Source: Methanosphaera stadtmanae
Lineage (GTDB): Archaea; Methanobacteriota; Methanobacteria; Methanobacteriales; Methanobacteriaceae
Length of the DNA stretch: 55,873 nucleotides
Assembly: GCA_015062825.1 (NCBI GenBank)
Contig: SUTR01000006.1
Span: 15,000 to 70,872, forward strand
Reading direction: 5' to 3'
How positions within the stretch are numbered: the first letter of the stretch is position 1; each line of letters begins with the position of its first letter. Position numbers and translations under genes: made by a program. Below, in pieces: positions 18,356 to 25,385 of the stretch. Below the pieces are notes generated by a model. It ran no database searches. It saw nothing but the letters and a program-made list of their open reading frames with translations, and was not told where the DNA came from.

Positions 18356-18679
18356 TTATTTTGGTAAAAATGCATATGCTAATAGTAAAATTATTACAAT
18401 AACTACTAATACAATGATTGTTGTATTTGGCCCTGATGATTCGGTTTGTGTTGTTTGTGTTTTAACAACTTCTTTAATTTCTTCTTCAACTTTTTTATCA
18501 GCAGAAGATACTTCCTCATTAACTTGTTCTTCAACAGCTGATACTTCTTCTTGTATATTTTCAACTTCTTGTTCTACTTCTTCAACAGCCTCATCAGCTT
18601 TAGGAGCAGGTGTAGGTGCATCCCCTGCAATGAAGCCATCTTCTCTTAATTTTTGTGTAAATGATAAATCTGAACTCAT
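18356..18679 (-). CDS. Tail-anchored acidic protein with N-terminal LSFTQ motif
   Basis: The 107-residue protein has three parts. Residues 1-16 read MSSDLSFTQKLREDGF, a motif shared (12 of 16 identical) with the N-terminus of the Alba protein at 24957-25385. Residues 20-80 are Ala/Pro then Glu/Val-rich and predicted to form an acidic coiled coil. Residues 85-104 are a single hydrophobic span (TIIVLVVIVIILLLAYAF) ending LPK, so it is a C-tail-anchored protein whose bulk faces the cytoplasm. AAGGTGA precedes the ATG at good spacing. It is a separate transcription unit. The family is unknown to me. The shared N-terminus suggests that both proteins bind a common partner, which is inference. Confidence 0.8.
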   Translation of the reverse strand: MSSDLSFTQKLREDGFIAGDAPTPAPKADEAVEEVEQEVENIQEEVSAVEEQVNEEVSSADKKVEEEIKEVVKTQTTQTESSGPNTTIIVLVVIVIILLLAYAFLPK

Positions 18680-24956: not shown

Positions 24957-25385
24957 ATGAGCGAACAATTATCATTTACTCAAGCTTTACGTGAAAATGG
25001 TTTTACACAAAGCAACGAAAATAGCCAAAATAACAACGATGAAGATGCTATCGAAAAAACAGAAAAAGTTGTAGAAGTATCCAACGATAATACTGTTAAT
25101 AATAATTACAATGATGATGAAGTAAGAGTCATGTATATTGGTAACAAATCTGTAATGAATTATGTTTTTACATTAGTCAATATATTTAATGAAGAAAGTG
25201 ATGTAGTAAGCATCCAAGCTAGAGGCAGAGTTATCAACAAAGCTGTTGATGTTGTTGAAGTTTTAAGACATAGATTCATCACTGATTTAACTATTGAAGA
25301 CATTAGTATTTCCACCCAACAGATTATCCGTGATGATGGAAGAGAATCTAATGTTTCAGCAATAAACATTACCATAAGAAACTAA
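24957..25385 (+). CDS. Alba DNA/RNA-binding protein with N-terminal extension
   Basis: The 142-residue protein is built from two parts. Residues 54-142 form a complete Alba domain: VMYIGNKSVMNYVFTLVN (with the conserved Lys region), IQARGRVINKAVDVVEVLRHRF and the C-terminal strands ending VSAINITIRN. Alba dimers coat DNA and RNA in archaea. Residues 1-53 are an addition not found in ordinary Alba (about 90 residues): MSEQLSFTQALRENGF, then an Asn/Glu/Asp-rich, probably disordered linker. The first 16 residues match those of the tail-anchored protein at 18356-18679. AGAGGTAAG precedes the ATG. It stands alone in its transcription unit. The extension may recruit partners or tether chromatin; this is inference. 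Confidence 0.92.
   Translation: MSEQLSFTQALRENGFTQSNENSQNNNDEDAIEKTEKVVEVSNDNTVNNNYNDDEVRVMYIGNKSVMNYVFTLVNIFNEESDVVSIQARGRVINKAVDVVEVLRHRFITDLTIEDISISTQQIIRDDGRESNVSAINITIRN

Follow-up and report, generated by a model that had tools for sequence, protein, structure and literature searches.

Why should a chromatin protein and a small membrane protein of the same archaeon begin with almost the same peptide? In the window, a 55,873-nucleotide stretch of Methanosphaera stadtmanae DNA, an Alba paralogue (Alba2) starts with MSEQLSFTQALRENGF and a small acidic membrane-anchored protein with MSSDLSFTQKLREDGF. As an earlier note had pointed out, the two N-termini share 12 of their 16 residues, and we confirmed this count and both open reading frames (ORFs). 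The shared peptide, called the tag here, and the features around it are the following.

24957..25385, plus strand: Alba2, the tagged paralogue of Alba, 142 aa (E=1e-29 to TIGR00285, E=4e-16 to Pfam Alba)
24972..25004, plus strand: core of the putative docking tag of Alba2, SFTQALRENGF, residues 6-16 (motif HMM E=2.1e-5 / 1.8e-5; matrix 34.3 bits)
25005..25127, plus strand: acidic/Asn-rich linker of Alba2, residues 17-57 (28% D/E, 7% K/R)
25128..25379, plus strand: Alba domain of Alba2, residues 58-141 (TIGR00285 match)
18356..18679, minus strand: tagged small acidic membrane-anchored protein, 107 aa (from the ORF and its orthologues)
18632..18664, minus strand: core of the putative docking tag of the small membrane protein, SFTQKLREDGF, residues 6-16 (motif HMM E=5.5e-6; matrix 31.8 bits)
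18365..18424, minus strand: C-terminal transmembrane span of the small membrane protein, TTIIVLVVIVIILLLAYAFL, residues 86-105 (read from the sequence)

One peptide at two N-termini

Could the likeness of the two N-termini be accidental? We scored all 126 ORFs of the window with a matrix trained solely on tag copies from the repeat proteins of other species (described below), with neither window protein included. Alba2 and the small membrane protein took the top two places (34.3 and 31.8 bits), the next ORF of the window reached 8.2 bits, and the maximum among 12,600 shuffled ORFs was 14.6 bits. These results exclude chance similarity of the two N-termini.

The earlier note had also read differing codons as a sign of selection at the protein level. 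In the window pair, codons differ at 5 of the 12 identical residues (S2, T8, R12, G15 and F16), and the argument from these two genes is therefore modest. On the other hand, it holds across the genus, where the fixed residues of 87 distinct tag copies use nearly all of their synonymous codons: TCA, TCT, TCC, TCG and AGT for serine; AGA, AGG, CGT and CGA for arginine; TTA, CTT, CTA, CTC and CTG for leucine; and four codons for glycine.

The tagged proteins of Methanosphaera

How widely does the tag occur, and on what? Its consensus, LSFTQxLRxx[G/N]xI, spans about 13 residues. A degenerate pattern was run on 20 genomes of the genus and 139 genomes of the family, followed by profile searches. The tag was found in 19 of the 20 Methanosphaera genomes; in the 132 genomes from the rest of the class, the HMM found no copy at E<=0.01. 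Two pattern matches in 119 genomes of other Methanobacteriaceae were both short, non-gene frames, and the HMM gave none there. The search of Methanobacteriales proposed in the earlier note thus confines the tag to the genus Methanosphaera; named records with the repeat protein likewise belong to Methanosphaera or to uncultured Methanobacteriaceae.

In the genomes searched, the matches fall almost wholly within one fixed protein set, which comprises the protease LonA, a CoA-disulfide-reductase-like flavoprotein, Alba2, the small membrane-anchored protein and a K/E-rich repeat protein. All five types are present in the window's own genome (G000). Weak matches to permease-like, kinase-like and NAD-kinase-like proteins and to a large-ORF fragment at a contig end were dismissed as chance, judging by how they score and where they lie. 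In G001, an ORF of about 1,800 codons that resembles a glycosyltransferase gene (G001:C31:137188) has a weaker tag-like sequence, SFTQKIRQEQQIQ, in a linker (E=2.7e-4) and is possibly an extra client. Forms with G or N at position 10 do not mark separate networks, since both occur within one genome and they do not sort by species. A viral origin was also rejected: the repeat protein is absent from viral contigs, and a scan by codon pattern gave two stretches with no tag in a credible protein.

LonA (endopeptidase La, TIGR00763; G000:C121 in the window's genome) has the tag at its N-terminus in all 18 proteins seen, ahead of the substrate-binding domain and on a short linker, with the serine at residue 7-12 in most of them. 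The flavoprotein (G000:C100), whose best family match is TIGR03385 at a score under its cut-off, has it at the opposite end, again in 18 of 18 seen; there an acidic linker, some 30-140 residues long, leads to the tag, which forms the last 11-14 residues. Orthologues outside the genus with visible termini lack both tag and linker (11 of 11 flavoproteins and 7 of 7 Lons). Alba2 is a member of the Alba family (TIGR00285 / PF01918) by score, with 102.4 bits against a curated cut-off of 88.25 over residues 58-141. It is the second, divergent Alba of the genome and retains the GNK loop and the ARGR stretch of the canonical protein, but differs in its tag and acidic linker. Every Alba2 copy with a visible start is tagged at the N-terminus (serine at residue 6 in all eight intact copies listed), whereas the canonical Alba is untagged, both in G000 (G000:C30) and in all 18 Methanosphaera genomes read.

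The small membrane protein keeps its N-terminal tag, and its linker, in orthologues from 16 genomes of the genus. Its C-terminal segment is hydrophobic in 13 of these and a short amphipathic helix in 3 (G009, G013 and G019; sequences SFIGKIVDAIKNIF, SFIGKLVETIKNIF and EGFFSKIKKALGL), as if the helix in these three species kept contact with the membrane by other means. The fifth type, the repeat protein, is long and K/E-rich and occurs with the tag in all 19 tagged genomes. It has 2-5 internal tag copies about 45-160 residues apart, usually ends in a divergent C-terminal copy (KTFIDLIRSEGLL) and matches no Pfam or NCBIfam family. In M. stadtmanae it is 419 aa long.

The earlier note had taken the peptide for a shared docking tag that works at the protein level and that orthologues in related species should keep. 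Orthologues of both window proteins do keep it at the same terminus across Methanosphaera, and this, together with the one fixed protein set, supports such a tag strongly. The pairing of Alba with a membrane protein proved too narrow: both are tagged, but so are Lon, the flavoprotein and the repeat protein. Furthermore, Alba2 was not found in G001-G004, G012, G013, G017 and G018, about half of the genomes and several of them 97-99% complete, and the other tagged proteins are present there. Bridging of nucleoid or RNA to the membrane, the purpose suggested by the earlier note, is consequently not general, and Alba2 would be an optional client.

In G014, the one genome outside the tagged set, these searches found no tag, repeat protein or Alba2, although contig borders truncate its Lon at the N-terminus and its flavoprotein at the C-terminus, just where they would be informative. 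G014 is the deepest branch of the genus in the flavoprotein tree, where the 17 others form one clade (support 99/99), and its own branch is long. The lack of these parts in the deepest branch suggests, without proving it, that the tag system arose within Methanosphaera.

Form of the tag and a proposed assembly

The information in the tag is concentrated at a few residues (F 4.3, R 4.2, L 3.9, T 3.6, I 3.5, S 3.5 and Q 3.4 bits), a pattern that speaks for specific recognition more than for general stickiness. In an AF2 model of the repeat protein of Methanosphaera sp. rholeuAM6, built on an alignment of seven sequences, the later tag copies appear as isolated seven-residue helices that begin at the phenylalanine (256-262, 305-311 and 358-364); the tag blocks have pLDDT values of about 60-79 and the linkers 33-43. 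A single-sequence AF2 model of Alba2 gives a low-confidence helix at residues 7-13 and a linker with pLDDT 30-40. Taken together, the predicted helices and the residue information point to a short helix that is N-capped by Ser/Thr, turns at Gly/Asn near its end and would dock on a putative receptor. A comparison of the motif profile with PDB chains gave no relative at E<=1.

What might such a peptide be for? We consider it rather probable that the tag is a docking peptide, read by a putative receptor, and that it recruits clients to a multivalent, membrane-tethered assembly. A candidate common receptor would read LSFTQxLRxx[G/N]xI, with its near-invariant Phe, Leu and Arg, on flexible and mostly acidic linkers. 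The repeat protein, with its several copies, would cross-link receptors into a multivalent network, to which the single-tag LonA, flavoprotein and (where present) Alba2 would be recruited as clients, and the small tail-anchored or amphipathic protein would tie this network to the membrane. Receptor binding and the formation of an assembly or condensate are what we infer from the arrangement of the sequences. The tagged clients share no obvious pathway. Lon and a disulfide-reductase-like flavoprotein suggest protein and redox quality control, and our guess is that the assembly would handle proteolysis and redox quality control locally, close to the membrane.

Could the tags instead bind each other? 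Homotypic binding, for example by bundling of the helices, would produce an identical sequence pattern: the repeat protein would condense by itself and the single-tag proteins would co-partition with it, with no receptor. The same motif on scaffold and clients makes a third partner unnecessary, its F, L and I might line up as a hydrophobic face, and sticker motifs of this kind are known from the diatom protein PYCO1 (PMC10288592). However, the near-invariant polar residues (R 4.2, T 3.6 and Q 3.4 bits) fit a specific pocket better than bundling, and the copies modelled by AF2 are separate helices without bundles, which argues weakly in the same direction. We regard this explanation as unlikely, if worth keeping in view. 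The tag could also steer stability or localisation without any assembly, as an adaptor-type turnover signal linked to Lon or as a localisation signal, with the repeat protein as a decoy or adaptor hub. Lon is indeed tagged in every species with a visible Lon start, but it bears the tag in the manner of the other clients, as a ligand joined by a short linker to the substrate-binding domain behind it; moreover, an enzyme and a membrane anchor are tagged, and the sites are terminal and fixed, at N- and C-termini alike. Such a handling signal seems improbable to us.

Two further explanations fare worse still. A short terminal peptide joined to an enzyme by a flexible linker is the usual design of cargo for a protein shell, and the position and linkers of the tag, which would address unrelated enzymes, resemble those of encapsulin or bacterial microcompartment cargo. 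Nevertheless, the encapsulin fold (PF04454) was found in none of the 20 genomes of the genus, with positive controls (detected in 3), and neither a membrane-anchored protein nor a repeat protein with several tags would be usual cargo; to our knowledge, they have no counterpart in shell-cargo design. We therefore rejected an encapsulin and hold shell cargo in general to be very improbable. Marginally less credible again is a spread without function, either of a selfish or accidental coding repeat like the Rickettsia palindromic elements or by exon-like shuffling. One peptide does recur in unrelated genes, with tandem spread inside the repeat protein. Elements of the Rickettsia type, however, would be expected at varied sites and genes with near-identical DNA, and here, in all 19 species, the tag keeps to termini or inter-linker sites in one constant set of five orthologue groups, with essentially none elsewhere in the genomes searched, and its synonymous codons have diversified around fixed core residues.

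A membrane-tethered assembly built on a docking peptide recalls known systems. In the Chlamydomonas pyrenoid, one Rubisco-binding motif is shared by the linker EPYC1 (about five copies in a disordered protein), transmembrane proteins and clients; it is enough for targeting and is restricted to one algal order (PMC10473226). As with EPYC1, RBMP1/2 and SAGA1/2, we see several spaced tag copies between the low-confidence linkers of a repeat protein, the same motif on a membrane-anchored protein and on Lon, the flavoprotein and Alba2, and a motif restricted to one lineage. The set described here differs in being archaeal and in its clients (Lon, flavoprotein and Alba2); the receptor in the pyrenoid is Rubisco, and no sequence relation is expected. 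The diatom PYCO1 is a tandem-repeat linker with sticker motifs that condenses by itself and also binds Rubisco; it shares the tandem-repeat linker with the Methanosphaera set, but its abstract describes no set of motif-bearing clients (PMC10288592). The repeat protein has no curated family and the motif no solved structure, so nothing links this system to the pyrenoid family by descent; if our reading holds, it would only work like one.

We put forward tentatively, and with more doubt than the docking role itself, that Methanosphaera has a membraneless, membrane-tethered compartment of pyrenoid-like logic, with a private motif, receptor, linker, tether and clients, which would have arisen in the genus once its deepest sampled lineage had branched off. 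If true, this would be an independent origin of the design of multivalent linker and tagged client known from algal pyrenoids, and a trait of gut methanogens that is absent from the other genera of the class. Since one peptide traceable in 19 species predicts membership of such an assembly, the purification of a putative archaeal condensate or scaffolded complex could be tested with that single peptide. Open-access literature on Methanosphaera with Lon and Alba or with NADH oxidase and on archaeal condensates with short linear motifs gave no description of the tag, nor did the passages of a Methanosphaera comparative-genomics paper that match the search terms (PMC6120340); an archaeal short-motif address system for a multi-protein assembly was not found described in the open-access literature.

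Surroundings of the repeat gene

In G000, an assembly gap interrupts the repeat gene: the part for the N-terminus lies at the end of contig C28 beside thiC, and the part for the C-terminus at the end of C29 beside a DUF126 gene. The gene is intact in G003, G008, G011 and G017, with the same flanking gene order. Downstream of it, after 16-25 bases, comes the DUF126/aconitase-X swivel gene (PF01989); thiC is on the opposite side. Loci with the DUF126 neighbour are as follows.

L242, 8386-10075: repeat gene with DUF126 neighbour
L243, 8134-9750: repeat gene with DUF126 neighbour
L245, 8442-10203: repeat gene with DUF126 neighbour
L105, the window's own genome: repeat gene with DUF126 neighbour

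The repeat gene and the DUF126 gene likely form an operon, judging from their spacing and order. The product of the PF01989 gene is probably the small subunit of phosphomevalonate dehydratase, an enzyme in the mevalonate pathway of archaea. We did not adopt this operon partner as the tag receptor, because the adjacency may merely mirror an ancestral gene order. A second conserved motif, LKRRVAPGxSEIIIRKNEEKR, stands at the N-terminus of the repeat protein (in L058, L066, L089, L090, L096 and others). Among the other proteins of the genus none matched it with a useful score, and it may bind a further partner.
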